Of a stretch of DNA of 64,000 nt, positions 23,674-61,276 are shown piece after piece; position 1 is the first letter of the stretch; each line of letters begins with the position of its first letter. This DNA is from Methanoculleus taiwanensis (GTDB lineage: Archaea; Halobacteriota; Methanomicrobia; Methanomicrobiales; Methanoculleaceae), in NCBI RefSeq assembly GCF_004102725.1, contig NZ_LHQS01000003.1, positions 307,889 to 371,888 on the forward strand, written 5' to 3'. A program made the position numbers and the translations under genes. The notes under the pieces were generated by a model. The model saw only the letters and a program-made list of their open reading frames with translations, did not search any database and was not told the DNA's origin.

Positions 23674-24926
23674 AACGGTTCACCTTGAATCATCGCCCGT
23701 ACGAGGGCTTCCGCCGTAGCCAGATCGCCGCATTCAGCGCTCGACCGGATGGCAACGGTCATATCCGAGAGGATTTTTTTAATCACCGACCGGGTCAGGT
23801 CGTCGACGACGGAGGCGACCCGGGGATCGGCCGCCCCGAGGCGGTGCAGCGCACGGTCGCGCTCCCGTAGCCGGATCGACTCCGCCCAGGTATAGAGGAG
23901 GGCGAGCGTCTCGTCCGCTGCCGCCCGCTTCATCTGGCGGACGAACTGATCGAGTTCTTCGTTTATTATCCCCTGAGCCCGTTCCGCCTCCGTTTTGCGG
24001 GAATTTAAGTTTGTATCGCTCACTTCACGGAGATCGTCGATGGTAAAGAGGTGAACGCCGTCTATCGACCGGACATCCTCCTCCACGTCCCGGGGCTGAG
24101 CGATATCGATCAGGATGAGGTGGCGCGGGTGAACGTCGAGCGGCCAGAGCCGCTCCTCCATCACCGCCCGGATCTCACCAGCGTGGATCACTGGGTGCGG
24201 TGCTGCGGTGCAGGAGATGACGACGTCCGAAAGGGCTATGTATCGATAGAGATCATCGAACTTGACCGCTTTGCCGCCGATCTTCCCGGCAAGGATCTCC
24301 GCACGCCGGGGTGTTCTGTTGGTGACGTAGATGGCAGTCAGATCCTTTGCGGCAAGCGCCTGCGCGACGAGCATTCCCATCTCGCCCGTCCCCACGACAA
24401 GGATATGCCGATCTTTCAGGCTCCCGAGGAGCTTCTCCGCCAGCGTCACCGCCGCAGATCCTATGGAGACGGCGCCCCGGTTTATCTCCGTCTGCCTGCG
24501 CACGCGGACACCGACGTGGACGGCCTTCGTCACGCAGAGCTCGATGAGCGTGCTGCAGGCACCGGCAGTCTGCGACAGGGAGAGCGCTTTTTTGAGCTGG
24601 CCGAGGATCTGATCTTCCCCGACGATCATGGAGTCGACACCGGAGGCGAGCTCGAGGAGGTGCCGGGGGACGCTCGCCCCTTCGAGGACGAAGAAACCCT
24701 CCCGCCCCTGTTCCTGCAGGAACTCGGTGAGCGCGGCACCCTCGCCCTGCACCACGACCTCCACCCGGTTGCAGGTCTGCAGGAGCAGGGCACCCTTGAA
24801 ATATGCCCGGGCAAGCCGGAGGAACTCATCCTCGTCGGGAAAACGGAACCGCTCGAGGGTGGCGATATCGGCGGAATGGTGGTTTACGCCCGCAAGCGCG
24901 AGCGGTGAGAAGGTCGATTCAGGCAC
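23652..24926 (-). CDS. hemA: Glutamyl-tRNA reductase
   Basis: This 424-residue enzyme reduces glutamyl-tRNA(Glu) to glutamate semialdehyde, the first committed step. It has the catalytic Cys52 (LLQTCNRVEVV), the substrate segment SMIVGEDQILGQ and the NADPH-binding VGTGEMGMLVAQAL. I place the start at GTG 24926 (MPESTFSPLALAGVNHH), overlapping the precorrin-2 dehydrogenase stop by 8 bases; the longer frame to 24998 adds residues unlike the family. It is the second gene of the operon. Confidence 0.95.
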   Translation of the reverse strand: MPESTFSPLALAGVNHHSADIATLERFRFPDEDEFLRLARAYFKGALLLQTCNRVEVVVQGEGAALTEFLQEQGREGFFVLEGASVPRHLLELASGVDSMIVGEDQILGQLKKALSLSQTAGACSTLIELCVTKAVHVGVRVRRQTEINRGAVSIGSAAVTLAEKLLGSLKDRHILVVGTGEMGMLVAQALAAKDLTAIYVTNRTPRRAEILAGKIGGKAVKFDDLYRYIALSDVVISCTAAPHPVIHAGEIRAVMEERLWPLDVHPRHLILIDIAQPRDVEEDVRSIDGVHLFTIDDLREVSDTNLNSRKTEAERAQGIINEELDQFVRQMKRAAADETLALLYTWAESIRLRERDRALHRLGAADPRVASVVDDLTRSVIKKILSDMTVAIRSSAECGDLATAEALVRAMIQGEPLCFPRDE

Positions 24927-25545
24927 GCAGATACCTCTCCTCTGCAATCCGCCGTGCGTCGGCGTAGTCGGATGCAAGAGCCGTCCAGATCTCCTCATCG
25001 GAGAGGATGCTCCAGAGTGCCGCCGACCGCTTCTCCTGCGACGGCTCGGTCTCCTTCAGCATGGCTCGAAGTTCCCCCTGCAGCTCGATCATACCGTCCA
25101 GTTCTCCATACTCTTCCTCAAGCCTCATCCGTATATACCGCGGCACGGCGGGGCTCATCCCGAACGTGGTTATCGCCATCAGGTAGCGGCGTCCCCGGAT
25201 CACCGACGGGATCAGCACATCTCCCTGCTCCCCTGCCGCATTGTTGAAGTGAACACCCCTTCTCCTGCAGATCCTGCCGATCCGGTCGTTCAGTCCGGCA
25301 TCGGGAGTCGCGGCCACGACGAGGAAGGCATCCCCGACCAGTCGCTCAAGATCGTCGTCCGGCATCCCGGCGAGGTCTGTCCGGCGCCGCCGTACCGCAA
25401 GATCGTCGAAGGCAGGCGCAAAAGAACGGCTGATCACCGTTACATCTGCCTCATGACGAAAGAACGCAGCCTTTCGAGCCCCGACCTCTCCCCCTCCGAA
25501 GATAAGTACCGCCCTGCCCGTAAGATCAAGCATGAGAGGGATCAT
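24919..25545 (-). CDS. Precorrin-2 dehydrogenase / siroheme synthase N-terminal domain protein
   Basis: This 208-residue protein has the NAD-binding Rossmann motif RAVLIFGGGEVGARKAA and NNAAGEQGDVLIPSVI with the family's central domain, like the N-terminal half of CysG and Met8. It would oxidise precorrin-2 to sirohydrochlorin. A possible TATA element (CTTAATC on the minus strand, about 25575) lies about 30 bases before ATG 25545, suggesting a leaderless start. ATG 25533 is an alternative. It is the first gene of a six-gene tetrapyrrole operon with hemA, hemB, hemL, hemC and cobA. Confidence 0.9.
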   Translation of the reverse strand: MIPLMLDLTGRAVLIFGGGEVGARKAAFFRHEADVTVISRSFAPAFDDLAVRRRRTDLAGMPDDDLERLVGDAFLVVAATPDAGLNDRIGRICRRRGVHFNNAAGEQGDVLIPSVIRGRRYLMAITTFGMSPAVPRYIRMRLEEEYGELDGMIELQGELRAMLKETEPSQEKRSAALWSILSDEEIWTALASDYADARRIAEERYLRA

Positions 25546-34946: not shown

Positions 34947-35447
34947 ATGCTCATCGGCCTGATCTCTGATACGCATGACAATCTGGAAATGGTCGACCTG
35001 GCCGTCGGGAGGCTGAATGATGAGGGTGTCGACCTTGTCCTGCATGCCGGCGACTACGTCTCTCCGTTCGTCATTCCCCGCCTCGGAAGACTGAACGCTC
35101 CGCTTATCGGCGTACTCGGGAATAATGACGGAGATCACGCACTGCTGAAGGTCCGGTTCGCCGAGGCGGACGATCTCGAACTGCGGGGTCGGTTTGCCGC
35201 CGTTACGGCAGGCGGGATTACGCTAGGTCTGCTGCATGGCGAAGAGATCGAACTCCTCTCAGCACTTACCGAACGGCAGGCCTTCGATGTCGTCGTCCAC
35301 GGCCATACTCACCGGGCAGGGATGCAGATGAGCGGGGAGACTCTCGTCATCAACCCGGGCGAGGTCTGCGGCTACCTCTTCGGGGAACCTTCGATCGCAC
35401 TGCTGGAGACGGGTACCCGAAGCGCAACGATCGTGAACCTCCGGTGA
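34947..35447 (+). CDS. YfcE/MJ0936-type metallophosphodiesterase
   Basis: This 166-residue calcineurin-like phosphoesterase has the dimetal motifs ISDTHDN, HAGDY, LGNNDGD, LHGEE and HGHTHRAG in the usual order, and ends in the family's INPGEVCGYL segment. Archaeal MJ0936 and bacterial YfcE hydrolyse phosphodiesters in vitro; the natural substrate is unknown. The length is normal, with no signal peptide, and the gene stands alone. Confidence 0.92.
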   Translation: MLIGLISDTHDNLEMVDLAVGRLNDEGVDLVLHAGDYVSPFVIPRLGRLNAPLIGVLGNNDGDHALLKVRFAEADDLELRGRFAAVTAGGITLGLLHGEEIELLSALTERQAFDVVVHGHTHRAGMQMSGETLVINPGEVCGYLFGEPSIALLETGTRSATIVNLR

Positions 35448-36905: not shown

Positions 36906-38051
36906 TTACTGTCTGCGCAGGAAGAAGATGCCTCCGACAGCAGCCACAGCCAGAATGACCACGCCGATGATCGCGAGCATCGGAACCTCGCCGATCGGGG
37001 CGGAGGTCTCGCTGCCGGTAGTAACCGGCGCCGTTGCAGTCTCCTCCGGCTGAACAGTCACCGTTTCGGTCGGGGTGATCTCCGGGGTCTCCGTCACGTT
37101 GGACGGTTGGGTGTCGGAACTGCCGGTTTCCACCAGATCGCCGGAGAAGATACTGCCCCCGGTCCCACCGCTCGGTACAGGCAATCCGCCGCCACCACTG
37201 CCACCGCCGCCACCGCCGGGCGTCGGTGTGGGGGGTACGGCAGGTGCGCCGAAGAGTCCGTAGATGCTGAAGTGGTCAACGACGGCTTCGACGTAGTTTT
37301 GATCCATGTTCCGTCCGGTCGTGACATCCTGCCAGGCAGACCCGTCCCACCAGGTGATCTTCAGGCTGTCTTCAGAGAGGCCCGCAGCAGCGATCTCGGC
37401 ATCGGTATAGTACATCCGGAAGGTGACTTTGGAGATGGCGCTGGCCGGGATCGTCGTCGAGATAGCGACGAACTTCATGCCGCTCAGGCCGGCGATACCG
37501 GCGTTCACGGGGTTCTGGTCGCCGGGATACCGGGCGACGCTCAGCTGTTCACCGCTCAGCGGAGTTTCCGTCACAAGACCGATCCAGAGACCGGCACCGG
37601 GGAACGAAAAGGGCGTCTCCTGCCCTGCCGGCATGGTAACCTCCACCGACTCGATCGAGCCGGGCGGAACTGCCGGAATGGCTTCCCGGGTGGTCAGGCT
37701 GAGGCGAGTGACCTCTCCGGACGCGAACGTTGTGGTCTGCTGTGCAGAGATACCGTTCACATAGAAGGTGATCTGCTGGCCGGATTTATCACCGACAACA
37801 ATGAGTGTCGGCTCTCCGGGATAGACCCACCCATAGGCTCCGGTCTTGGTCGTCACGATACTGCCGCACTCTTTCCCGTCGATATATGCCGCGATCTCCG
37901 TCCCCGCCAGTGCAGGATTGCCGAGGTTATCGGCGACCGAGCCGTTGAAGAACTGCGGGAGCGGCGGGTTCGACGCATCCTCTGCCAGAACGGTGGTGAC
38001 CAGAGCGCAGGAGACCACGAGACAGATGAGCATTACGTATCCTTTTTTCAT
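36906..38051 (-). CDS. Membrane-anchored cell-surface protein
   Basis: This 381-residue protein has an N-terminal signal (1-23), a beta-sandwich-type domain (about 30-125, with FFNGSVADNLGNPALAG and YGWVYPGEPTLIVVG), and a second domain (about 128-265) ending in VVDHFSIYGLFG, like the pre-anchor domain of archaeal surface proteins. A Gly/Pro and Thr/Glu-rich linker follows, then a single C-terminal membrane segment with an Arg-rich tail (FFLRRQ). This is the plan of S-layer-associated proteins. It lies 90 bases downstream of the giant beta-helix gene on the same strand. Confidence 0.82.
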   Translation of the reverse strand: MKKGYVMLICLVVSCALVTTVLAEDASNPPLPQFFNGSVADNLGNPALAGTEIAAYIDGKECGSIVTTKTGAYGWVYPGEPTLIVVGDKSGQQITFYVNGISAQQTTTFASGEVTRLSLTTREAIPAVPPGSIESVEVTMPAGQETPFSFPGAGLWIGLVTETPLSGEQLSVARYPGDQNPVNAGIAGLSGMKFVAISTTIPASAISKVTFRMYYTDAEIAAAGLSEDSLKITWWDGSAWQDVTTGRNMDQNYVEAVVDHFSIYGLFGAPAVPPTPTPGGGGGGSGGGGLPVPSGGTGGSIFSGDLVETGSSDTQPSNVTETPEITPTETVTVQPEETATAPVTTGSETSAPIGEVPMLAIIGVVILAVAAVGGIFFLRRQ

Positions 38052-38141: not shown

Positions 38142-41100
38142 CTAGCAGCAGAGGTTCACTGCCGGGATGTTCAGGGGTGTTGAGGAGAAGCCTGCAAGCG
38201 TGTCGCAGTTCTTCATGAAGACCCAGTATCCTCGTCCGACATCCATGGTCGGCGCCTCATCGCACCCGGCGGTGTAGACCCAGCAGTCCTCGTTCACGGA
38301 CGGGCTGACGACGAGTGTGTAGCCAATCTTCCCGTCGGGAGTCTCCGCCACGGAGACGAGCGTCTTGTCGACCGGCAGGGTCTCCCACAGAAGGCAGTCC
38401 TGGTCGAGGCAGTATGCAGGCCCGATCAGGTTCCAGCCGGGCTTAAGGCACTTTACGGCCGGGCTTGTGATCTCCGGGTTGATCGCGAGCGGCACACGGT
38501 CGTCGCGGATCATCTTGATGAAGATCGCATCAAGCGGCCCTATCTCGGTCGAGTCGATGACCTGCACCCAGGTCTGCTGCTCGGCATCCCACGTGACTGC
38601 AGCGCAATAGTCAAGGCCGTCGCCGAGCTTGCTGATCGATCCCCAGCTGCTGTTGACGAGCGAGATCGGAGTGGAGAGCGTGTTCCAGCCCATCTTAAGG
38701 GCGTAGTAGTCGTACTCACCCTTCAGCTCAAAGCCGAAGGCAGCCTTCTGCTCGCCGATGACGACTGCAAAGGGCTGAGTCAGCCACGGCTCGTAGGTGC
38801 AGGTTCCGTAGACGGCATCACCGATGCCAGGTCCGACACCGGAGGGGCCGCTGATAGCGCCGTAGTAGTTGTAGGTCGCATCGGTGGGATCGAAGTCCTC
38901 GGCACCGACCTCAGTGGGCAGAGCGATGGAATCGACCACGAAGAGGCCGGCATCGTCGCTCCCGACGAGGTCGTTGAAGTTCACGTCGCCACCGTAGGTG
39001 AAGACGCCGATGCCTGCAGAGAACGCAAGGGATGCTGCGTCGGTGCGGTAACCTTCGGCGATAGCCTCGGCAACCGCGCACCCGTGGCCCTCGACGGTGT
39101 TCTGCTCGATGGCAGACTCGTGGTCAAGGATACCGATACCGAGGCCGGCGCTGAGCGCGTAACCGCACGCATTCTCAAGGAGCGCTTCGGTCTCGGCGAT
39201 GGCCGCGGCGTTCGCGCTTGCGTCCGCGAGGACGTTGTTGCAGGTGACGATCGAGTTGATCGAGGCAATACCCACGGCAAGGCCGGCGGCACCGCTCGCA
39301 GATCCGACCTCAAGAGCGGATGCTTCGTAGGTCTCCGCAGTCGCTCCCTCAACGCAGGCAGTGACGTTCACGTCGTTGCCGTCGATGGAGGACCTCGGAG
39401 CGACGATACCGACGCTCGCACCAAGACCGCCCGCAAGAGCGACCGGGTCGCCGATACCCTCGGCGTAGAGGTTCATCGAGAGGCAGTTTTCAACGGTTAC
39501 GTCATTCTTTTTCACGGTGTTCTGGTAGTAGTTCTCTTCGATAGTGCTCTGACCGACGGGGATGTCGATCTGATCAAGGGTGTTCAGCGTTACGATACCG
39601 ATACCGGCCGAGCCGAGGAGGCCGTATGCGCCGGAATACTCGTTCGGGACGCCCTCGATGGAGGCGCCGTCGTACTCACCGCAGATATCGATATCGACGG
39701 TGTTTTCGGAGATGTCGTTGATATACGCGAGAGCAGTGATACCGACCGCAGCCACGCCGTTCAGGCCGGTCGTGACGGCATCCCTGGTGCCGACGAGCTC
39801 CTCTTCGGCATATGCAGCGGCCTTGAGAGCGCTGCTGACGGAGACATCGTTCCCGGTGATGACTGCAGAGTAACCCGAGGGGCCGATGATACCGAACCCG
39901 GCACCGAGCCCGGTCTGACCGGCCAGGGCATCTTCAATACCTACTTCGGCGTACGAGGCGGCGACCGCCGCGGTATCGACGCAGACATCGACGGCATTGT
40001 CGTTGATCTCAACATTTCCGCAGGTATCCGCAAAGACACCGATGACGGCGCTCGACGATCTCACGGTAGCGAATGCATCGGTGGAACCGATGATCGAGTT
40101 TACCGATTCATTCACCAGCATGGCCTGCTCCTGCACGAACATGCCCTCACGGGCGAGCCGTGCCATCAGGCAGTCGGGCGTCATGCCGGAGTAGGATGCG
40201 ACCGCAACACCGACGACGGCGTTGCTGCCGCCGACATCGACGCAGTTGCCGATGACGGTCGTGTCGTAGGTGTCATAGAGCGTGATACCGAGTACCTCGG
40301 TTGCTGCAAGACCAACGGTGTTCGCATAGCCGGTCTCGTCTCCCGCAGCAGAAGCAACCTCGGTGTCGAGGAGCACGGTGACACTGTTTTCGTAAACGTC
40401 GGAGTCGTAGCCACCCCAGAGGCTCAGGCCTTCCGCCCAGATGCCGCCGTAGGCAAGGGCAAAGGCCTCACTCTCGTCGGCAGCCTCGATGCAGAGGTCG
40501 ACACTGATAATGTTGTCGTGAACGTCCGCATCGCCGCAGGCATCGATATCGACACCGGTGGTGCCCGACCACTCTGCAACCGATTCACCGGCGACCTCGG
40601 CGTGCATCGCGTCCATTACCTGGGCACGCTCGGAGGTTCCGACGGCGATCGCTCCGTTAAGGGACGAAGCCGCAACATTGGCTTCCATATCGACACAGTT
40701 CCCGGCAATCTGAGACTGGTAACTGTCACAGACATAGATGCCCTCCATCCAGAAGGCTGCACTGCATCCTGCATCGAGGTTGTCGACGACTCCGTTGCGG
40801 ACAAGGCTCTCAAGACAGGCGTCGATACCGACGGTGTTGCCGATGACCTGAACCTTCTCGGCGGAGTCGACGTTGATGCCATATCCGGTGGCAACGACAC
40901 CAAAGACCTTCATGCAGATCTCGTTGCCGACGATCTGGCCTTTCTCGGCGTCCCATACATCGATACCGTACGGGTCGGCGGTGTACGCCTCGGTACAGGA
41001 GTCGATCGTGTTGGAGTCGACAAGGACTTTCAGGCCGGTCGCATAGATGCCGTCGGCGTAGGCGTAGTCAGCCGCTGCAGTCGAAGTGATCTCGTTGCAG

Positions 41101-42035
41101 GAGACCTCGGCGAAGTCGCCTTCGACATCGATACCGACGGTTCCGGCGAAGCTCCCGATAACGCAGACATCACAGGTTGCGGTAACGTCGACGACGTTCT
41201 CTTCAACCACCGCGGAGTATCCGTAGACCGAGATACCGGCGGCATACGCGTAGCAGGACTGCTCAACCGCTGCCGAGATCTCAGAGGATCTCATCCCTGA
41301 CCGGTGGTCTGCCTTATATCCGGTCTCAAGAACGCTGACAATCGATTCTTCGGTCGCGACGGTGTTCCCGGAACCAATGACGTTAATACAGATGGCGTTG
41401 CAGTTTACCTGAGGATTCTCAGAGTCGTCGACGTAGATACCGTACGCTTCCGCGCAGGCATCGATCGTGATGCCGTTGCCGGATATGACGGCATTATCAG
41501 AGCAGTAGACAGCGATACCGTCGCCAAACAGTACATCGAGGTCTATGCAGTTGTCGGTTATCCGAACATTGTCGGCATACTCAGCGAGAATCCCGACCTC
41601 TTCGGCATTGATGATGGTAAAACCGCTGACGGTAACGTCCGCCGCATCGTGGATGTAAATGCCGATCGGCTCTCCCGTCGCGTCGAGGACCGTACCCTCA
41701 TCGGCGATCACGGAGACCCCGCACTTGGTGATCTCGACCGACTCATAGTAGGTCGCGTCGCCAACATGCACAATGCCGTATTCTGCGACGGCATCGACTG
41801 CCTCCTGGATGGTCGCGAAGTGATCGCATCCGTATCCCGGAGTAGATGGTCCGTAGCTCGGACAGACCCAGACCTCACATGGCGCAGGCGCCGAGGCAGT
41901 TTGAGCCGACACAGCAGGCGTGGTATTCTCCACATCCGCTGCACTTACGGGCACGAACAGCAGTGCCGCAATGGCCAGTGCAAACACCGACCAGAGAAGC
42001 AACCGGTTTGATTGCCCGGATTTTGATTTCGTCAT
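38142..42035 (-). CDS. Giant secreted parallel beta-helix protein
   Basis: This 1297-residue exported protein has a signal peptide (about 10-35). A long region (about 70-1080) of right-handed beta-helix turns of the NosD/pectate-lyase type follows, recognisable by recurring N-x-I or N-x-V turns (NVVDVTATCDV, NCVDVGGSN, NDVTVENCL). A spacer with YYGAISGPSGVGPG comes next, then a C-terminal module with MGWNTLSTP and GWNLIGPAY found in archaeal surface proteins. It is very acidic and Ala-rich, and there is no membrane anchor. I chose ATG 42035. It may bind polysaccharide or form a filament at the surface, which is inference. Confidence 0.85.
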   Translation of the reverse strand: MTKSKSGQSNRLLLWSVFALAIAALLFVPVSAADVENTTPAVSAQTASAPAPCEVWVCPSYGPSTPGYGCDHFATIQEAVDAVAEYGIVHVGDATYYESVEITKCGVSVIADEGTVLDATGEPIGIYIHDAADVTVSGFTIINAEEVGILAEYADNVRITDNCIDLDVLFGDGIAVYCSDNAVISGNGITIDACAEAYGIYVDDSENPQVNCNAICINVIGSGNTVATEESIVSVLETGYKADHRSGMRSSEISAAVEQSCYAYAAGISVYGYSAVVEENVVDVTATCDVCVIGSFAGTVGIDVEGDFAEVSCNEITSTAAADYAYADGIYATGLKVLVDSNTIDSCTEAYTADPYGIDVWDAEKGQIVGNEICMKVFGVVATGYGINVDSAEKVQVIGNTVGIDACLESLVRNGVVDNLDAGCSAAFWMEGIYVCDSYQSQIAGNCVDMEANVAASSLNGAIAVGTSERAQVMDAMHAEVAGESVAEWSGTTGVDIDACGDADVHDNIISVDLCIEAADESEAFALAYGGIWAEGLSLWGGYDSDVYENSVTVLLDTEVASAAGDETGYANTVGLAATEVLGITLYDTYDTTVIGNCVDVGGSNAVVGVAVASYSGMTPDCLMARLAREGMFVQEQAMLVNESVNSIIGSTDAFATVRSSSAVIGVFADTCGNVEINDNAVDVCVDTAAVAASYAEVGIEDALAGQTGLGAGFGIIGPSGYSAVITGNDVSVSSALKAAAYAEEELVGTRDAVTTGLNGVAAVGITALAYINDISENTVDIDICGEYDGASIEGVPNEYSGAYGLLGSAGIGIVTLNTLDQIDIPVGQSTIEENYYQNTVKKNDVTVENCLSMNLYAEGIGDPVALAGGLGASVGIVAPRSSIDGNDVNVTACVEGATAETYEASALEVGSASGAAGLAVGIASINSIVTCNNVLADASANAAAIAETEALLENACGYALSAGLGIGILDHESAIEQNTVEGHGCAVAEAIAEGYRTDAASLAFSAGIGVFTYGGDVNFNDLVGSDDAGLFVVDSIALPTEVGAEDFDPTDATYNYYGAISGPSGVGPGIGDAVYGTCTYEPWLTQPFAVVIGEQKAAFGFELKGEYDYYALKMGWNTLSTPISLVNSSWGSISKLGDGLDYCAAVTWDAEQQTWVQVIDSTEIGPLDAIFIKMIRDDRVPLAINPEITSPAVKCLKPGWNLIGPAYCLDQDCLLWETLPVDKTLVSVAETPDGKIGYTLVVSPSVNEDCWVYTAGCDEAPTMDVGRGYWVFMKNCDTLAGFSSTPLNIPAVNLCC

Positions 42036-42227
42036 GCTTTCTTCACCTGTTTTCATACCCATCGCCTGAACGATGTTAGACGCGCATAGACGTAACTCAC
42101 ATATATAACTTTCTCATACAGGGGAATCTGCGAGAAATAATTAAATAAAATAATCATTGTCCTGACCAACCCCTTTTATTCGCAGGTTAATAATAATAAT
42201 CAAAATATGCGTCTGCCCCAAGAAACG

Positions 42228-42260: not shown

Positions 42261-44507
42261 ATGAAACGGAGACACTTCCTGTGCCTGATAGCCCTTTTAC
42301 TGATAGCGGGCACGTTCGTTACAGTAGCCGGGGCGGAGCGGGTCATAATCGGGTTTCGGGGCGACCCCGATCAGACAATGCTCCGGCACGGCACAGGCAT
42401 GCATCTGCATCACGGAATTTCGGCAGTATCGGTGGATATGCCAGTATACGCCATCGAGAGGATTGCACGCGACCCCAGGATAGCTTATATCGAACCGGAC
42501 TACCAGGTGCATGCCCTCGGGGATACCGTTCCCTGGGGTATCGAGAGAGTCGGGGCACCGACGGTGCACGAGGCGGTCGACGGGGACGGAGTACGCGTGG
42601 CCGTGCTCGATACGGGCATCGATTACACTCACCCGGATCTCGAAGGAAACTACCGGGGCGGATACGACTTCGTCAACGACGATGCCGATCCCATGGATGA
42701 CAACGGCCATGGAACACACTGTGCAGGCATCATTGCAGCAGAGAGAGATGAGAGCGGTATCATCGGTGTCGCTCCGAAGGCCGATCTCTATGCGGTCAAG
42801 GTGCTAAGCAGCGGCGGCGGCGGATACATCAGCGATGTCGTATCAGGCATCGAATGGGCGATCGAGAACGACATACAGATCATATCGATGAGCCTTGGCA
42901 GCAACTCCGACTCCTATGCCCTTCGCTCGGCCTGCGACGCAGCATACGAGGCGGGGATCGTTCTCGTCGGGGCCGCAGGCAATGACGGCAGGTATTCCGG
43001 GTACGGCGATACGGTCGACTATCCGGCCAGGTACGGCTCCGTGATTGCGGTCTCTGCAATCGACGAGAACAATCAGCGGGCATCATGGTCGAGTACCGGG
43101 CCTGCCGTGGAACTCGCTGCACCGGGCGTCGGGATCTACTCGACCTATCCTGACGGGTACCGCTCGGTGAGCGGAACGTCAATGGCATGCCCGCATGTCG
43201 CCGGCGTTGCGGCACTCGTCCTTGCAGCTCACCCTGACCTCGGCAACACCGAAGTGCGGGAGCTGCTCACCACCACTGCAACCGATCTCGGGCGCTCGGC
43301 GTGGTACGGCTACGGGTTGGTGAACGCCGCCGGGGCGGTAGGCGATGTCGTCGTCACGGATACGACCCCGCCGGGTATTACCGGCGTGACCGTGAAGGAG
43401 ATAACCGGAACCGGTGCGGTGATCACCTGGCAGACCGATGAACCGGCATCGGGCACCCTCCGGTACGGCACCTCCCCCTCAGCCCTGAACGACCAGGTCT
43501 CAGAAACCGCTTCAGGCGTTTCGCACCGCATCACACTCGCAAACCTCGAAAAAGGCGTCACATATTCCTATACAGTCTCATCGACAGATGCGTATGGGAA
43601 TACCGCCACCGACCCGGCCGGGGAGATCCCGTACACCTTCACGACATTGACAAACGATCTCCCGGTTGCCGATGCAGGCGCCGATAAGTCGGCAGGCGAT
43701 GCGGACGGTGACGGCCTTGAGGCCGTCCTGCTCGACGGATCAGGGTCATCCGACCCCGACGGTTCCATCGTCGCCTACGAATGGCTGGAGGGAGACGCTA
43801 CCCTTGGCACCGGAGAGCAGATCACCTATGCGTTTGCCGTCGGAACACACACGGTCACGCTCCGGGTCACCGATACCGACGGTGCAGCTGCAACCGACTC
43901 GGTACAGGTGGTTGTAAAAGCCAATCAGCCACCGGTTGCAGTTCTCAGCGGAGACGGCACCGCACATGTGGACAGTCCGGCAGCCTTCGACGCCGCGGGA
44001 TCGTACGATCCGGACGGTATGATCGTGCAGTGCGACTGGGAGTTCGGCGACGGCACGAGCGGAACCGGGACGGCGGCAACCCACATCTATGATTCGGCGG
44101 GCACCTATGCCGTTACACTCACCGTCACCGATAACGGAGGCAGATCGTCCACGGAGACGCAGGCCGTCACCGTTATCGGGGTGAACGAAGCACCCGGGAT
44201 GCACGTTTGGGATATCGATATGCTGGTAGAGGAGAACTCGTATCGCACCTACTGCATCGCGACCGTCACAATCGTCGATGACGGCAACAACCCGGTTCCG
44301 GGAGCTGAGGTCACCGGATACTGGGGCGGCCTTGGAAGGGGCACAGGATTCGGAACGACGGACAGCGCCGGTTCGGTAACCTTTACGTCGAACGCGGTGC
44401 GCCGGAACGGCGGGCTCTTCATCTTCACCGTCGATCTGGTAGAAAAAGAAGGCCGGACGTATACGCCTGCTCTGAACCTCGAGACATTCGATTCGGTTTC
44501 GGCCTGA
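42261..44507 (+). CDS. Secreted subtilisin-family (S8) serine protease with PKD domains
   Basis: This 748-residue protein has a signal peptide (1-25), a short inhibitor-like propeptide (about 26-85) and a subtilase domain (about 90-365) with Asp117 (VLDTGIDYTHP), His150 (NGHGTHCAG), Asn241 (GAAGND) and Ser307 (GTSMACPHVAG), all present. A fibronectin-like domain (about 375-460), two PKD domains (about 463-640, with SSDPDGSIVAYEW and DPDGMIVQCDWEFGDG), and a C-terminal domain that may bind surface polymers follow. It should be an active exoprotease. The gene has a clear TATA box and stands alone. Confidence 0.94.
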   Translation: MKRRHFLCLIALLLIAGTFVTVAGAERVIIGFRGDPDQTMLRHGTGMHLHHGISAVSVDMPVYAIERIARDPRIAYIEPDYQVHALGDTVPWGIERVGAPTVHEAVDGDGVRVAVLDTGIDYTHPDLEGNYRGGYDFVNDDADPMDDNGHGTHCAGIIAAERDESGIIGVAPKADLYAVKVLSSGGGGYISDVVSGIEWAIENDIQIISMSLGSNSDSYALRSACDAAYEAGIVLVGAAGNDGRYSGYGDTVDYPARYGSVIAVSAIDENNQRASWSSTGPAVELAAPGVGIYSTYPDGYRSVSGTSMACPHVAGVAALVLAAHPDLGNTEVRELLTTTATDLGRSAWYGYGLVNAAGAVGDVVVTDTTPPGITGVTVKEITGTGAVITWQTDEPASGTLRYGTSPSALNDQVSETASGVSHRITLANLEKGVTYSYTVSSTDAYGNTATDPAGEIPYTFTTLTNDLPVADAGADKSAGDADGDGLEAVLLDGSGSSDPDGSIVAYEWLEGDATLGTGEQITYAFAVGTHTVTLRVTDTDGAAATDSVQVVVKANQPPVAVLSGDGTAHVDSPAAFDAAGSYDPDGMIVQCDWEFGDGTSGTGTAATHIYDSAGTYAVTLTVTDNGGRSSTETQAVTVIGVNEAPGMHVWDIDMLVEENSYRTYCIATVTIVDDGNNPVPGAEVTGYWGGLGRGTGFGTTDSAGSVTFTSNAVRRNGGLFIFTVDLVEKEGRTYTPALNLETFDSVSA

Positions 44508-45048: not shown

Positions 45049-46152
45049 TCACCGCAGATTCATAAGCCGCCAGATAGGCTTGCCCAATCCGAGATCGGCT
45101 TTGAGATAGGCGTCCGAGACATTTATCGATTCGGGAACCTCGAAAAAGAGGAAGCCCTCCAGTCCCTGGTATCGATCAAGCTGTCCGCCGAGGTATGACT
45201 GCCCATGCGAGGTCACCGCGGGGACATCGATCGGCTGATAGGTCGAGTCCTGGTGTACAAGCGTGAACGACCGTGCTCCGGGAAGCCTGACACGGTAGTT
45301 ACTTCCGTCCCCTTTATACCCGAGGTGCGTGTACTTGAGCGCGATGAGGAGATACTGCTGCCCGAATCCGGCCTCGAACCGTTTCTCCGGCGAGTCTGCT
45401 GCCGTAAACACATGCGCCAGCCTCGTTGATTCGACGATGAGCGAGAGCATGTTGTCCCCGCTCGAGTCGTCATAGCAGTAGCGTTCGCCAAGGCCTAAAG
45501 CACCGGGAAATGCGGGAGTCGGTATCGGAGAGGGCGCTGCCTGCAGCAAGAACTCATCCGGAGCGACATCTGCCGTATCGCTGAGCGATGCCATTGCCAC
45601 GTGCAGACGCTCCGTTCCCACGGCGATGCGGTCGAGTGCTGTCTCGACCGCGGCAGGGTCTCGGAGCCCGCTCTCGGTGAGCATCCTGCCGGCCGCGCTG
45701 TACTCGTCAAGAGCTGCAATAAAGTCCGTTCTGGCCGATTCGTTTTCAGGGGAGACCGTGCAGGCCTCGGCATCCCGAAGTGTCGAGAGAGCCAGATCGG
45801 ATAGCGCCGGAGCCAGTTCAGAAAGTGCCCTTTCATCCTGGTAGTATGCGGCGTGAATATTCTGGACAGAGAGCATCAGGAGTGGGAGACTCGAATCCGC
45901 CATCAGCAGGGCGAACGCATCGTCGCCCGAGAGGGGGGCGAGACTGCCGCTCTCACCCGCTACATCGGAAGCATTCTGAACCGGAGCGGCAGGGGTGGAT
46001 GCATCGACGGCGAACAGATTCAGCGGGAGCGGAATGAAACCGGCATAGACGGTGCCTGCCGAGGCTTCTCCGGGCACGACCGCCGTAAAGACGATCCCGC
46101 CGAGTAGACCAACGAGCACCAGCGTTGCCAGGAGGGAGTTTTGCAACCGCAT
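45049..46152 (-). CDS. Secreted protein, tandem paralogue 3 of an unrecognised family
   Basis: This 367-residue exported protein (signal peptide about 1-30) has a helical domain with LPLLMLSVQNIHAAYYQDE and VGTERLHVAM, then a beta-rich C-terminal domain starting CYDDSSGDNMLSLIVES and including LLIALKYTHLGYKGDGS and ESINVSDAYLKADLG. The C-terminal part recalls extracellular DUF4352-type beta-sandwich domains. The two upstream genes encode proteins with the same plan. I chose ATG 46152 because it directly precedes the signal peptide. The function is unknown. Confidence 0.78.
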   Translation of the reverse strand: MRLQNSLLATLVLVGLLGGIVFTAVVPGEASAGTVYAGFIPLPLNLFAVDASTPAAPVQNASDVAGESGSLAPLSGDDAFALLMADSSLPLLMLSVQNIHAAYYQDERALSELAPALSDLALSTLRDAEACTVSPENESARTDFIAALDEYSAAGRMLTESGLRDPAAVETALDRIAVGTERLHVAMASLSDTADVAPDEFLLQAAPSPIPTPAFPGALGLGERYCYDDSSGDNMLSLIVESTRLAHVFTAADSPEKRFEAGFGQQYLLIALKYTHLGYKGDGSNYRVRLPGARSFTLVHQDSTYQPIDVPAVTSHGQSYLGGQLDRYQGLEGFLFFEVPESINVSDAYLKADLGLGKPIWRLMNLR

Positions 46153-46296
46153 ACCGCAGAATACCAGAAGATAACATATAATTTTTTCTGATTTCAATAA
46201 AACGATCCGTATCGGCAAAATCCTCAACCCGGAGAGGGGAAGAACCCGCAGCGTGTCGGAACACCGCATATCTCCCATTCGATCCCGGGAAACTGC

Positions 46297-47502
46297 CTAC
46301 TGCATGGTCTTGCCGAGTGCCCAGACAGGAGAACCCTGATCCCCGAGGTTCACGGAGATGCAGGCATCGGAGACGTTGAGCGACGCGGGTACGTCGTAGA
46401 TAAGGTAACCCTCGGTCGTCTCGTACCGGCTCAGCGTAACTGTCCGGTATGGAGCGCCGTAGGAAGTGGAAGAGGTTACCGTGAGCGGTGAATACGTCGC
46501 ATCGTAATAGTGGAGGGTGAACGAACCGAGACCCGGCGTCTTTATGCTGTACGTCCGGCTCTCCCCCTTGTGTCCGATGTTGGTGACCTGCACGGCAACC
46601 AGCAGGAACATCCGCCCCGGTTCTGCGGTGGCGATATCGTGGTCGCCTCCGAGAAGCTGATATGATCCGGTCCTCCGTGCCGACTCGATGATCAGAGAGA
46701 CCATATTCGCACCGGTCCGGTCATCGAAGGTGTATCGCTGCCGGAGCGGCAGTGCGTTCCGGAACAGGGAGGCCGACGGTAAACGGGGGGCGAGTTCACC
46801 TATACCGGAGACCTCCTGCGGGATCTCAGGTGCCCGGTCGGAGATCCCGTCGATTGCTTCCCGGAGGTGATCCGTACCCACAGTAATATTTTCAAAGGCA
46901 GTATCCACCTCGGTCTTGTTCAGGAGCGACGCCTCCCGAAGAAGATTCCCGGCCGACGCATACGACTCGAGAGCAGCAACGAATGCGGATCGGGTACCTT
47001 CCCGTTCGGGCGAGATCTCGAGTGGCTTCACTCTCTCAAGAACGCCCGTGGCCATATCCGCAAGGCCACTACCGGCATCACTCACGCCCGCCTCATCCCA
47101 GTAGTACAGCGCATACACATTCTGCACCGAGAGCATCGTCAGGGGAATACTGGTGTTGGCGATGAGATCTACCAGAATATCATCGTCATATTCGGGCATC
47201 TCCACGGTGGCATTGCCCGTATCGACAGAGGTCGTATTCGCAGCTCCGCTCTCCACGGGTTCAGCGGGCGGCGGCACCGCCGGCAGGGGCTCTCCGGAGA
47301 GCGCACTTCCTTCAGCAAGCCGGACATACGTGTCGGAGAAAAGGGGAGCAGAATCGGCCTGGAAGACCCATCCCTCTGCTGCCGGGTGCGGCACCGACGC
47401 GTTGAGCAGCCCGTCCGGCTCCGAAGCGGCAAGGGAGAAGACCAGGATACCTGCAAAGATGATCAGGGCGACGACCATTGCGACAGAATCCCCACGCTCC
47501 AT
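46297..47502 (-). CDS. Secreted protein, tandem paralogue 2 of an unrecognised family
   Basis: This 401-residue protein has a hydrophobic N-terminal signal or anchor (MERGDSVAMVVALIIFAG). The helical domain has IPLTMLSVQNVYALYYWDE and VGTDHLREAI, and the C-terminal beta domain has TFDDRTGANMVSLIIES, LLVAVQVTNIGHKGES and ASLNVSDACISVNLG. These correspond block for block to both neighbours. The start is uncertain: ATG 47532 and an ATG eight codons further in are alternatives. It is the most similar in the helical part to paralogue 3. Confidence 0.77.
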   Translation of the reverse strand: MERGDSVAMVVALIIFAGILVFSLAASEPDGLLNASVPHPAAEGWVFQADSAPLFSDTYVRLAEGSALSGEPLPAVPPPAEPVESGAANTTSVDTGNATVEMPEYDDDILVDLIANTSIPLTMLSVQNVYALYYWDEAGVSDAGSGLADMATGVLERVKPLEISPEREGTRSAFVAALESYASAGNLLREASLLNKTEVDTAFENITVGTDHLREAIDGISDRAPEIPQEVSGIGELAPRLPSASLFRNALPLRQRYTFDDRTGANMVSLIIESARRTGSYQLLGGDHDIATAEPGRMFLLVAVQVTNIGHKGESRTYSIKTPGLGSFTLHYYDATYSPLTVTSSTSYGAPYRTVTLSRYETTEGYLIYDVPASLNVSDACISVNLGDQGSPVWALGKTMQ

Positions 47503-47601
47503 GAATGGGTACAGTGTTCCGTTCTGCCACATAAAACCTTGCAGATCCGGATTGCCGGTGTGGTGCCGGCAACCGGAAGAGAAAGGGCTCTGAAAAGAGA
47601 A

Positions 47602-48864
47602 TCAGGCCTGAGCCTCTCTGAGGCTCCAGACCGCGATACCAGGTGATCCGAAATCTACCTGCAGGCGTGCCTCGGAGACGTTCAGCGTGGCAGGCACGTC
47701 GAAGAGAAGGAAGCTCTTCTTTGATTCGTACCGCTCCAGGCGGGCACCGGCATACGATTCGCCGAGAGAGGTCGTAGGCGGAAGCGCAACCGGCGAGTAT
47801 ACGTCGGTGCGATGGTGAAGCGTTACGGCGGCAAGGTCTGGAGTATCCGCTTCATACAGATCTCCATCTCCCTTATGCCCGACGTTCGTGGCTTTCACGA
47901 CGACGAGGAGGAACTGGCGCCCGAGCCCTGCGGTGACGGCCACTTTCTCCTCGTCGCGGGTGTAGGTATACGAGCGAACTTTTCCGGTGGATTCGGCCAT
48001 GAACGAGAGCATGTTCTCACCCTCCGGATCATCGTAGCTGAACCGCTCGAGAAGAGGGAGGGCGTCCCGTGACGCTGTAGAAACGTCCTGATACGGCATG
48101 CTGCCGGCCTGCAGGCGCGAACCGGAAGCTGCCGCCACGATCATCGCCTCCTGCCCGGGCCCCTGCAGCGCTGTCCGCAGGTAGCTGCAGCCTTCCGTGA
48201 TCTGCACGAATGCCGCATCAGTCGCAGAGGCGTTCCCGATACCGGTCTCCTTCAGGACAGAACCTGCCTCGATAAAGTCTTCAAGTGCACGCATGAAATC
48301 TGCCCGGACAGGTTCCATACCGGTGGATACGGTGAGCAATGCTGCTTTATCGCGAGCATCGACGGCGAGGCTATACATTTCAGCACCCCCTTTGTTCAGG
48401 GAGACAGTATCGTTGCCGTGCTCCGCGTACATGCACTGCACGGCAGAGATCATCAGGGGCACCCCGGACTCGGCGATGAGACTGAGCAGCATCTCATCGG
48501 CGTATGCATCGTCGTACGAGGTCTCGCCCACGGACGGTGGAGTGGCGGCATCGAGATCCTGGTTCATCACCGACACGTTATTGTCTGAGGCGACCTCTGC
48601 AGAGTTATCCTCCACCGCACCGCCGCCAATCCCGCCCTCGACAGAGGCGTTTGCCGTCTGATTCGGTGTGAGGTATGACGATAGCGGACTCGAGGCGGGG
48701 AATGAACCCTGACCCGGAATCGTGACAGAACCGAACGCCCCCGGATGCCCGGTCGGGACGGCAGTTGCATAGACAGGTGTGTCCAGAGCCGATGCAGGAA
48801 GCAGGAACCCGGACAGTCCGATGATTCCGATGACAAACAGCGCAGATGAAAGATGAACGCGCAT
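47602..48864 (-). CDS. Secreted protein, tandem paralogue 1 of an unrecognised family
   Basis: This 420-residue protein has a clear signal peptide (1-27). The helical domain has VPLMISAVQCMYAEHGND and the C-terminal beta domain has SYDDPEGENMLSFMAES, LLVVVKATNVGHKGDGD and ATLNVSEARLQVDFG. It is first of the three tandem genes, all on the minus strand with 99- and 144-base gaps. The upstream region is very A/T-rich (48870-48940), consistent with a strong promoter. No enzyme motif is visible, so a surface or ligand-binding role is likelier. Confidence 0.78.
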   Translation of the reverse strand: MRVHLSSALFVIGIIGLSGFLLPASALDTPVYATAVPTGHPGAFGSVTIPGQGSFPASSPLSSYLTPNQTANASVEGGIGGGAVEDNSAEVASDNNVSVMNQDLDAATPPSVGETSYDDAYADEMLLSLIAESGVPLMISAVQCMYAEHGNDTVSLNKGGAEMYSLAVDARDKAALLTVSTGMEPVRADFMRALEDFIEAGSVLKETGIGNASATDAAFVQITEGCSYLRTALQGPGQEAMIVAAASGSRLQAGSMPYQDVSTASRDALPLLERFSYDDPEGENMLSFMAESTGKVRSYTYTRDEEKVAVTAGLGRQFLLVVVKATNVGHKGDGDLYEADTPDLAAVTLHHRTDVYSPVALPPTTSLGESYAGARLERYESKKSFLLFDVPATLNVSEARLQVDFGSPGIAVWSLREAQA

Positions 48865-49816: not shown

Positions 49817-50806
49817 ATGTCGGCACGGAGCACTATCTTCTGCATCATCATCGTATGCTGCGTCCTCCTCTCTATCGCCTCGGCGCATGTTCCCGTCATG
49901 GTCGAGGGCGAGCATAACCGGCCCGCTACCGCAGTCGTCATCGACGACCCGACCAAGTCGTGGGTGATCTATGCGGGGCTGCCCACGAACGATACCGTCG
50001 ACTACTACCGGCTCCGCATGGAGGCGGGAGAGCAGATCCGGCTATCCGTCCAGACGCCCGAGGAAGGAGCGTTTGCTCCGGGGCTGGTGGTGATGGGGCC
50101 GGGGATCGAGTCCGCCGGAACACCGCCACCGTTCATCCGGCTGCCCGGCACCGGCGGTGCGGCGGTCATCCCCGGAGAAAGACCGGATAGCCCGTTCTTC
50201 GAGCCGTTCACCCCTTCAAAAACCTACGAAACCGCCGAGATCACCATCCCGGCACCGGAGACGGGTGACTATTACGTTGCGGTCTATGCCGATGAATACG
50301 CAGGACCGTATGCCCTCGCCGTCGGCACCCGGGAGAGTTACACGCTCACCGAGTGGCTGACGATACCCGTAGACGTCATCGGCATCCATCTCTGGGAAGG
50401 TCAGTCGCTCGCCGTCATTCTGGCACCCCTGATCGTTGTGGTCGCCGCCGGACTCCTTCTGATCGGCGGTCGGCAGAGAAGAACCCTATCCGCATTCGCG
50501 TGGGCAGCAGTGCTCGCCGGCCTGCTCTCTATCGGCAGCGGCGCCATGACGATCGTCCAGCTGATCATCGCTGCCATGGGTTCCCCCCTGACGGCTGCGA
50601 TACTGGTGACGCTGATCGTCGCCCTCATCCCGATCGTGCTCGGCACCGCAATGTTGCTGATCGGACTCCGGCGGAGGAGCGGCATCACCGATCGTGCCGC
50701 CATGGTAGTGCTCGGCATCATCGGGCTATTCACCTGGGCAGGCATGATCGCAGGACCGGTAATCGCCATTCTCTCCGCAGTGCTGCCCGGGGACGGGAAG
50801 CGCTGA
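49817..50806 (+). CDS. Exported membrane protein with extracytoplasmic beta domain
   Basis: This 329-residue protein has a signal peptide (1-23). An extracytoplasmic domain (about 25-180) follows, whose pattern (DTVDYYRLRMEAGEQIRLSV, APETGDYYVAVYADEYAGPY) recalls pre-peptidase C-terminal (PPC-like) beta domains. At least four membrane segments (about 200-320) come after it. I do not recognise a family and see no catalytic motif. It may be a sensor or scaffold at the envelope. It is a single gene, converging on the thioredoxin-fold gene. Confidence 0.75.
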   Translation: MSARSTIFCIIIVCCVLLSIASAHVPVMVEGEHNRPATAVVIDDPTKSWVIYAGLPTNDTVDYYRLRMEAGEQIRLSVQTPEEGAFAPGLVVMGPGIESAGTPPPFIRLPGTGGAAVIPGERPDSPFFEPFTPSKTYETAEITIPAPETGDYYVAVYADEYAGPYALAVGTRESYTLTEWLTIPVDVIGIHLWEGQSLAVILAPLIVVVAAGLLLIGGRQRRTLSAFAWAAVLAGLLSIGSGAMTIVQLIIAAMGSPLTAAILVTLIVALIPIVLGTAMLLIGLRRRSGITDRAAMVVLGIIGLFTWAGMIAGPVIAILSAVLPGDGKR

Positions 50807-53747: not shown

Positions 53748-54755
53748 TCAGAGTTCCTTTCCGATAAGGTGATTGATGATGTTCTCACAGATGTCGCCGG
53801 AGTACTCGCCGATCCTTCTGACACTATCCGCGACCGAACCGAGCGGGATCGCCGTGACTGCGTCGTACTGCAGCGACCGTCCGCTGATCTGCCGTGACTG
53901 CTCCTCAAGGTCGGGGACCATCTTCAGGATCTCGTTTGCTTTGACGATGTCGCTGCAGTAGAATGCCTCCATGCTCTTCTGGAAGATCTCGAGCGCGAGC
54001 GTGCTCGCAGTCCCGATCATGGCAAGAATCTCGCCGTCGACCTCCCGATCTTTCAGGATGAGGGCATTCCTTGCGACCCGGGTCGCGTGATCTCCCATCC
54101 GTTCGATGATCCTGCTGATCAGGAAGTAGTACATCGCCGTACCGGTAGGGATGCTCATCTTCCGCGACAGAGTCATATCGAGGAGGATGAGATGGTTCTG
54201 GCGCGCTATCAGCCAGTGCAGCCGGTCGACCTCGGTATCCCGCGCAACCACGTCCTCTGCCAGGACTGCATCCCGGGTCGCGAGCGCTGTGACCGCGTCC
54301 TCCTGCATGGATTTGACGATGACCGACATCCGCCGGAGGGTATTGCAGAAAGGCATCTCCGCAGGGTTCAAGAGGTCTTTGAGCGTTATCGAATCGTCAG
54401 TCTCGTTAATTACCTCCTGACCGACCGCCATCTGCGTAAAGTCCCTCACGAGTTTCCGAACAAACGCCGGGAGACGCCCCTTCGACCGGATCCTGATCGT
54501 CGTATATCCGGCAATATAGGCGCCGACGAGGTAACGGAGCAGATATGTCCGATCCGTGCTCCCACTCACTTCAAACTCTTTCACACGCTGCACTGCTTCG
54601 CCGCTGATCTTGGGAGTGATCAGCAGAGAGCCGTCAGGCTGGACGATCAGACCAACCGGATCGTTCTTCTGGATATTTGTAGATTTTATCCACTCTTTCG
54701 GCAGAGAGACGATGTACGACGACCCTCCGGTTATCTGCACTTTCCTGATCTCCAT
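53748..54755 (-). CDS. Phosphate uptake regulator, AbrB-PhoU type
   Basis: This 335-residue protein has an N-terminal SpoVT/AbrB-type DNA-binding domain (1-50, MEIRKVQITGGSSYIVSLPK) followed by two PhoU three-helix repeats with the metal-binding pattern ERMGDHATRVARN and RRIGEYSGDICENI. It is a known archaeal layout for regulators of the pst genes. It is divergent from pstCA, and the shared 246-base promoter region has an inverted repeat that may be its binding site. A paralogue of very similar plan is encoded at 60099. Confidence 0.92.
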   Translation of the reverse strand: MEIRKVQITGGSSYIVSLPKEWIKSTNIQKNDPVGLIVQPDGSLLITPKISGEAVQRVKEFEVSGSTDRTYLLRYLVGAYIAGYTTIRIRSKGRLPAFVRKLVRDFTQMAVGQEVINETDDSITLKDLLNPAEMPFCNTLRRMSVIVKSMQEDAVTALATRDAVLAEDVVARDTEVDRLHWLIARQNHLILLDMTLSRKMSIPTGTAMYYFLISRIIERMGDHATRVARNALILKDREVDGEILAMIGTASTLALEIFQKSMEAFYCSDIVKANEILKMVPDLEEQSRQISGRSLQYDAVTAIPLGSVADSVRRIGEYSGDICENIINHLIGKEL

Positions 54756-60098: not shown

Positions 60099-61115
60099 TT
60101 ACCGCATCTCTGCTTCTTCGCTCACAAGATCATTGATCACGTTCTCGGAGATATCCTTGGAGTACTCACCGAGCCTGCGTATGCTCTCGGCTATATATCC
60201 GACAGAGACGGCAATGGCGGTCTTCTGCCGGAGCGCGGTATGGCTGATCTCCTCGCACTGCACAGCGAGCGTTTGAACGGCCAGGATACTCCCGTTTGCT
60301 TCCACAATATCCTTTTTAAAGAGCGACCGGATGCTTGCATCATAAATGGCAAGGGCAACCCTGCTCGCACTCTCGATGTCGACGATCAGGGACGCATCCG
60401 GTTCTTCGCAAAACAGCGGGATTGAGTTCTTCGCAATATTGACGGCATGATCCCCGATCCGCTCGATGATCCTGCTGATCATCAGGTAGTTCGTCGCCGT
60501 CCCGGTGGAGACACCCATCCGCTTTGCGAGGCTGCCGTCACTCATAATAAGGCGATATTGACGGGCGATAAGCCATTGCAACCTATCGACGTCGTTGTCC
60601 CGGGCAATGACATCTTCGGCGAGCACCCGGTTCCCGGCCTTGAGCCCGATTATCGCATCCTCGTGCATCCCCCTGACGATGATATACATCCGCTGCAAGG
60701 TGCTGTCAAAAGGCATCTCAACCGGATTGAGGAGATCTTTGATAGTGATGGAGGCGTCACTCTCCTCGCCGACCTCCTGCCCGATAGCAATCCGGGTGAA
60801 GTCCCGCACGGCAATACGCACGGCAGGCGGGATACGACCGGTCGACGCCACGGTGATGGTGGTGTACCCCGTAATATATGCAGCAATCAGGCAGCGGAAG
60901 AAGAGTTCGGGGTTGGTCGATCTACCGACACGGAACAGCTTCGTGCGATGAGCGGTCTCACCGGATAGCTTCGTCGTAATGAGCAGCGTCCCGTCATTCT
61001 GTGCAACGAGCCCCAGAGGATCGTTCTTCTTGATTCTCATCGATGTTGCCCACTCTTTCGGGAGCGAGACGACATACGAGGAACCGCCGGTGATCTGAAC
61101 TTTCCGAATCTCCAT
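60099..61115 (-). CDS. Phosphate uptake regulator, AbrB-PhoU type, second paralogue
   Basis: This 338-residue protein begins MEIRKVQITGGSSYVVSLPK, nearly identical over 20 residues to the regulator at 53748, and has the same AbrB plus double PhoU layout (ERIGDHAVNIAKN, RRLGEYSKDISENV). The two proteins are alignable over their whole length but clearly diverged elsewhere, so they may bind related sites with different triggers. I chose ATG 61115. A minus-strand TATA (CTTATATAGC, 61171-61180) lies about 60 bases upstream. The pst operon stands between the two paralogues. Confidence 0.92.
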   Translation of the reverse strand: MEIRKVQITGGSSYVVSLPKEWATSMRIKKNDPLGLVAQNDGTLLITTKLSGETAHRTKLFRVGRSTNPELFFRCLIAAYITGYTTITVASTGRIPPAVRIAVRDFTRIAIGQEVGEESDASITIKDLLNPVEMPFDSTLQRMYIIVRGMHEDAIIGLKAGNRVLAEDVIARDNDVDRLQWLIARQYRLIMSDGSLAKRMGVSTGTATNYLMISRIIERIGDHAVNIAKNSIPLFCEEPDASLIVDIESASRVALAIYDASIRSLFKKDIVEANGSILAVQTLAVQCEEISHTALRQKTAIAVSVGYIAESIRRLGEYSKDISENVINDLVSEEAEMR

Positions 61116-61276
61116 ACCTACCACATGACCCGACGAGGCGACATAGACAAAGGAGAGGTTTTCATGCCACGCTATATAAGTGTCTTCATTCTATAGAGAG
61201 TATCGGAGCGTGAATAGTGCACGCCCAAAAGCCCCGACACCCGGGAAAGCCGGGAACACCCGCCGAAGAAGTTCGT

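Follow-up and report, generated by a model that had tools for sequence, protein, structure and literature searches.

Tandem genes for three predicted exported proteins that join a helical domain to a DUF4352-type domain in Methanoculleus taiwanensis

Three tandem genes and their products

The window analysed here, a stretch of 64,000 nucleotides from Methanoculleus taiwanensis, carries three minus-strand open reading frames (ORFs) in tandem that encode the proteins P0001 (409 residues), P0002 (411 residues) and P0003 (420 residues). The first gene of the tandem, for the predicted exported P0003, occupies 47602-48864. It is followed by P0002 (46297..47499, in an ORF reaching to 47532) and by P0001 (45049..46152, in an ORF reaching to 46278). 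Translation of the latter two probably starts at internal ATG codons, at 47499 (M12) in P0002 and at 46152 (M43) in P0001, which we prefer because a hydrophobic segment follows there. Pairwise BLASTP comparison of the three proteins gave 40% identity over 294 residues (E 8e-70), 37% over 296 residues (E 2e-60) and 36% over 305 residues (E 1e-52). By this comparison they are diverged paralogues with 36-40% identity over about 300 residues, confirming three tandem paralogous genes as proposed by an earlier, sequence-only reading of this DNA.

All three proteins are acidic (isoelectric point 4.4-4.7) and, judged by eye, begin with a hydrophobic segment, in line with the signal peptide that the sequence-only reading had assigned to each. 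In P0003 this putative signal peptide (48787..48864, minus strand) ends in an ASA-L like cleavage site, likewise recognised by eye. The motifs on which that reading had relied hold with exceptions. DD..G.NM.S...ES is present in all three, with NMVS instead of NMLS in P0002; the helical-domain motif is SVQ in P0001 and P0002 and AVQ in P0003; and the loop reads NxGHKG in P0002 and P0003 and LGYKG in P0001. Mean identity between the types represented by the three proteins is lowest, at 14-16%, in the first ~110 residues, where we saw no conservation between types; the helical domain reaches 27-30% and the beta domain 35-43%.

Counterparts of all three genes lie in tandem and in the same order in G001, the nearest related genome. 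The ratio of nonsynonymous to synonymous substitution rates (dN/dS) ranged from 0.25 to 0.38 in nine ortholog pairs, the three pairs between the window's genome and G001 being near saturation. Because of the tandem counterparts and these ratios, the gene set stands far beyond chance. Judged from the sequences, the three proteins are under constraint yet diverging fast.

The architecture of P0003 was predicted with AlphaFold2 from 39 input sequences taken from the window and from named Methanoculleus and Methanomicrobiales records. The predicted local distance difference test score (pLDDT) was at least 90 for 245 of the 420 residues and below 50 for 128, mostly within residues 17-110 (17-90 and 92-110). 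According to the model this part is probably a flexible stalk; residues 27-116 (48517..48786, minus strand), behind the hydrophobic N-terminus, are probably disordered. Helices were predicted at residues 117-149, 153-175, 181-207 and 212-234, forming a four-helix bundle (residues 117-234; 48163..48516) that also coincides with the helical profile. C-terminal to it follows a beta-sandwich at about residues 268-415 (47620..48063), assigned by model, fold match and profile as a DUF4352-like domain of immunoglobulin (Ig) type. The corresponding plan of the other two proteins was read from alignment and profile, the structural model being that of P0003 alone: a helical domain at residues 113-236 of P0002 (46825..47196) and 116-236 of P0001 (45571..45933), and a DUF4352-like beta domain at 46327..46767 in P0002, with a sub-threshold family match, and at 45076..45513 in P0001, all on the minus strand. 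The succession of a helical and a beta domain, already proposed from the sequence, is thus supported.

No family in Pfam or NCBIfam covers the full-length plan, nor did any PDB sequence match it; P0002 as a query of PDB sequences found no match. Among 46 family members, searches of Pfam and NCBIfam gave no credible catalytic family but only stray matches. A literature search, judged by titles and the beginnings of abstracts, returned no publication evidently about this protein family. Measured against Pfam and NCBIfam, the beta domain belongs to a known kind; neither the helical domain nor the combination of the two is described there. Hence the claim that the full-length plan lacks a described family stands, and that of an unrecognised family stands in part: the combination is unnamed, but the beta domain is related to DUF4352 and the helical domain is widespread in archaea.

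Kinship and spread of the two domains

Several lines of comparison identify the beta domain as a divergent DUF4352-type Ig-like domain outside the membership of PF11611. PF11611 (DUF4352) is the family to which Bacillus YjhA (3cfu) belongs, MPT63 (1lmi) having the same fold. Pfam DUF4352 matched P0002 with E 0.029 and 15.1 bits, the curated cut-off being 25.9 bits, and gave no match in P0001 and P0003. Across the whole genome of the window its score was 17.7 bits, again below the cut-off, and among the 46 family members 15 had matches at E ≤1, the best being 6.1e-4. Since the curated cut-off was applied and not reached, we do not file the domain under PF11611. In profile-profile alignment with hhalign, the beta profile matched a profile of 20 archaeal DUF4352 domains with a probability of 96.4% (E 1.1e-9, 77 columns), against 0.1% for the helical profile used as a control. 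In agreement with this, Foldseek with the P0003 beta domain found 5bxg (E 2.9e-4) and 9a4z (E 7.6e-4), and fold comparison with VIA placed it close to B. subtilis YjhA 3cfu (Z 13.6, 124 aligned residues, root mean square deviation (rmsd) 3.0), YxkC in the integrative model 9a4z (Z 13.4), MPT63 1lmi (Z 11.8), YcdA 4r4g (Z 11.0) and 4les (Z 10.7). As a query of PDB sequences the domain found nothing credible (best E 0.84). An immunoglobulin fold is ascribed to DUF4352 in one publication (PMC4520260).

The beta domain also occurs without the helical one. Alone, it makes up small proteins (L042, L043, L059) whose N-termini resemble those of lipoproteins, and one such small protein is encoded elsewhere in the window's own genome (G000:C1:197246-197746). 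It further stands C-terminally in large proteins with PKD domains, two of three scanned also containing DUF3344. Such large surface-type proteins are encoded in Methanoculleus at L047 3486-9133, L048 3276-8992, L049 871-5001 and L050 8889-11099, where the DUF4352-like domain forms the end, after hydrophobic segments. L048 and L049 carry DUF3344, PKD and CARDB; the partial L050 has PKD only.

The helical domain, by contrast with the beta domain of known kind, is by sequence comparison an exported domain of wider archaeal distribution that Pfam and NCBIfam lack. Both databases returned stray matches only (best NCBIfam E 0.015), and against PDB sequences the best match (E 0.0071) was a repeat protein, with no single stretch passing alone. 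Of 392 genomes of the phylum, 83 had relatives matched by a broad profile of 20 helical sequences, and these fall into 33 of 137 genera, the full-length family included. Outside the window's order the carriers are mostly ORFs of 150-200 residues. A profile made from eight exported relatives that belong to other genera and lie outside the family (seven are small proteins in which no second part was recognised, and one, L192, has an extra C-terminal part) matched the three window proteins with E 1.3e-11, 4.6e-11 and 5.6e-11; the best reversed and shuffled controls gave 0.091 and 1.4. In the window's own genome only the three window proteins have a significant helical domain, the fourth row being at E 0.29. 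Twenty further loci with standalone helical genes had no neighbour common to more than six of them. In one 411-aa protein (L239 7797-9032, minus strand), two copies of the helical domain occur together with CxxC zinc-ribbon-like motifs and a hydrophobic segment.

Folded by itself, the bundle was predicted as a plain four-helix bundle (pLDDT 89.9; predicted template modelling score (pTM) 0.84). Its fold matches include de novo designed bundles and talin and GIT1 domains at Z 11-13.5, and the chemoreceptor domains of PcaY (ligand-binding domain, Z 10.8, 126 aligned residues, rmsd 3.5), the methyl-accepting chemotaxis protein (MCP) 6db1 (Z 10.2) and the aspartate receptor (Z 10.0). Because proteins as different as these match at similar Z, the fold is uninformative on function. 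Receptor fusions, respiratory and photosystem subunits and OspC, which also appeared in the fold-match lists, were set aside as generic helical matches.

A search of genome contigs with the single P0003 sequence gave no relatives, whereas an alignment query did. With a profile of the three proteins, all 26 near-complete genomes of the family matched, and 38 of the 40 overall; the two genomes without a match are small and belong to the genera g4 and g5. All 35 genomes of the genus of G003, taken to be Methanoculleus proper, had matches. Named relatives in databases are from Methanoculleus species and metagenome-assembled genomes. Within the order, the helical profile matched 52 and the beta profile 79 of 150 genomes. 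Other families of the Methanomicrobiales often carry a longer form of 520-620 residues (L118, L120, L128, L131, L137 and L140 among them). Its additional N-terminal domain, as at L118 5977-6438 (minus strand) and in 18 relatives, has no Pfam match, and its best PDB match, to T-cell receptor chains (E 0.17), is not credible. In the window's family (40 genomes), a search run without a positive-control genome did not detect it.

Gene types, their history and surroundings

In Methanoculleus, genes were assigned to the three types by hand from locus comparison, tree and profile matches. In the tree P0002 joins its counterparts from G001 and Methanoculleus with a support of 100/99, and the P0003 clade has a weaker support of 85/79. 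The P0001-like groups of the window's genus and of Methanoculleus proper are not joined with support, so the orthology of this type between the two genera rests on gene order; the outgroup rows have long branches. All three types appear to be older than the separation between Methanoculleus proper and the window's genus, and the earlier suggestion of old duplications is supported. One P0001-like gene (G030:C309:253-1203, plus strand) has one internal TGA, which may mark a copy in decay or stem from an error of assembly.

The types differ in their retention. Of the 24 near-complete Methanoculleus genomes, 22 have the P0003 type. Eight have the P0002 and P0001 types together, the other 16 have neither, and in no genome does one stand without the other; these genomes are related to each other and the counts are not independent. 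This is good evidence, at the sequence level, that the two types are inherited as one adjacent unit, and it therefore suggests that they work together.

Gene surroundings were compared in 41 sources, namely the window and 40 loci. Further upstream in the window are genes for a 381-aa protein (36906-38051), a 1306-aa beta-helix protein (38142-42062) and a subtilase with PKD domains (42261-44507), all with counterparts in the same places in G001. A metallophosphoesterase gene lies at 34947-35447; in many Methanoculleus loci this gene directly adjoins the P0003 orthologue. In the window's genus, therefore, these two genes are separated by the surface genes and two of the paralogues. The P0003 type of Methanoculleus proper lies at a conserved locus shared with the window, with genes for a pyridoxamine oxidase-like protein, a secreted PPC-like protein, an ATP10-like protein, a Clp1-type kinase, CitMHS and PhoU and without NosD or subtilase neighbours, and the P0002 and P0001 types lie together at a separate locus. 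The description of the three genes as the bulk of a surface island thus fits the window and G001, where they stand beside the beta-helix protein and the subtilase, but not the sister genera, where the P0003 orthologue is at a housekeeping locus and the pair elsewhere.

Other genes of the window deserve brief mention. A 329-aa secreted protein (49817-50806, plus strand) with a weak PPC match and C-terminal hydrophobic segments belongs to a cluster found at the P0003 locus in 12 of the 41 sources. Two minus-strand genes at 53748-54755 and 60099-61124 are both homologous to L142:3478-4491, the first encoding a MazE-like N-terminus followed by PhoU domains. At 21456-24998 (minus strand), genes for an aminotransferase class III, ALAD and glutamyl-tRNA reductase, which serve tetrapyrrole synthesis, lie in a row. 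In two f6 genomes (L111, L112) a helical/Ig pair adjoins homologues of these genes. We rejected this adjacency as functional evidence, since it concerns two genomes of one genus only; the window copies lie 20 kb from the three genes.

Proposed role and known systems

We propose that the three proteins are non-catalytic, stalked binding proteins of the cell envelope, with P0002 and P0001 acting as a pair, and give this reading as a whole an even chance of being right. The N-terminal hydrophobic segment would send the protein across the membrane and then either anchor it or be cleaved. Some 40-90 residues of low complexity would serve as a stalk that lifts two folded modules, the four-helix bundle and the following DUF4352-type Ig-like domain, to a position beneath or inside the surface layer. 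There the modules may bind envelope partners, be it a protein, a glycan or a small ligand. P0002 and P0001 would act together, perhaps as a heteromer, and P0003 would represent the type that most Methanoculleus genomes have retained. Several points weigh against this proposal. The signal peptides were assigned by eye, and the mutual placement of the two P0003 domains in the AlphaFold2 model is uncertain (pTM 0.47). The P0002/P0001 pair is dispensable, because 16 of the 24 near-complete Methanoculleus genomes do without it. Moreover, flanking genes are of the housekeeping kind (Clp1-type kinase, CitMHS transporter, PhoU, NAD synthase and others), so neither the P0003 locus nor that of the pair gives a functional clue.

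Instead of binding envelope partners, the proteins might be soluble ligand sensors or carriers, with the bundle as the binding site of a small molecule, in the manner of chemoreceptor four-helix ligand-binding domains, and the Ig-like domain as the part that presents this molecule to a partner in the membrane. DUF4352 has been proposed to take part possibly in the recognition of extracellular ligands (PMC3924330), and the chemoreceptor domains of PcaY, the aspartate receptor and MCP 6db1 are among the fold matches of the bundle (Z 10.0-10.8). Designed bundles, talin and GIT1 score as high or higher, however, so that the match reflects a common arrangement only. Helical positions conserved in at least 90% of the 46 family rows are mostly hydrophobic or structural and outline no obvious pocket. 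Furthermore, no transmembrane signalling partner was recognised beside the genes: in 14 of the 41 sources a histidine kinase-like gene (cluster 3) occurs at a distance of a few genes, but in the window it is not next to P0001-P0003. We therefore regard a sensor or carrier function, drawn by analogy, as unlikely. The same conserved positions include no His or Met, which speaks against metal-binding helical proteins resembling SMBP. This analogy stems from SMBP 3u8v, which ranked second among Foldseek matches of the bundle (E 0.13; VIA Z 8.9), and from a Pfam SMBP match on the standalone relative L182 (E 0.092). As both sequence and Foldseek matches are insignificant, metal binding appears very improbable.

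A purely structural role would make the proteins abundant accessory parts of the surface-layer coat, with the Ig-like domain as a packing module. The beta domain is indeed the best conserved part of the proteins, it ends the large PKD proteins (partly with DUF3344) of L047-L050, and nearly every genome of the genus has the P0003 type. On the other hand, the proteins are small and single-copy in many genomes, and in our judgement the helical domain has diverged beyond what would be expected of a lattice contact. We consider such a coat function doubtful, even slightly more so than that of a sensor. Beyond the proposal of stalked binding proteins, a broader and rather speculative scenario, to which we give little credence at present, would have an ancestral extended receptor (N-terminal domain, bundle and Ig domain) as part of an envelope system throughout the Methanomicrobiales. 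In the Methanoculleus lineage it would have lost its N-terminal domain and triplicated, yielding a near-universal P0003-type subunit and an optional, obligate P0002/P0001 pair; subunit and pair would assemble at the surface into a heteromeric complex such as has not been described for methanogens.

Annotation of the envelope in hydrogen-using methanogens is poor, and the present analysis supplies a family that extends across the order and has a defined plan of domains. It includes a helical domain that spreads across the phylum and is absent from Pfam and NCBIfam, it would give a name to hypothetical proteins present in every Methanoculleus genome searched, and its co-inherited P0002/P0001 pair is directly testable for complex formation.

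Comparison with known systems places the family among several partial relatives. With chemoreceptor ligand-binding domains (PcaY, Tar) it shares the up-down-up-down arrangement of four helices (Z ~10-11), but we saw no sequence link, the fold match does not exceed that of unrelated bundles and a signalling domain is lacking. The small standalone exported helical proteins of Halobacteriota (for example L182, L183, L119 and L225) have the same four-helix domain, with reciprocal profile matches at E ~1e-11; they are mostly 150-200 residues long, lack the beta domain and are unnamed in Pfam and NCBIfam, and some have, by eye, a C-terminal anchor or an N-terminus resembling a lipobox. In the long form found in other families of the Methanomicrobiales, the helical domain precedes the same beta domain, as in the window family; the difference is the extra domain of ~155 residues ahead of the two. 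With DUF4352, finally, the family has in common an Ig-type beta-sandwich in exported proteins, the shared alignment core consisting of a strand, an N-x-G turn, F-x-L and an x-V-P ending. To this core the window family adds a conserved H/Y-K/R-G loop and a TP segment and, at full length, the helical bundle ahead of the beta domain.

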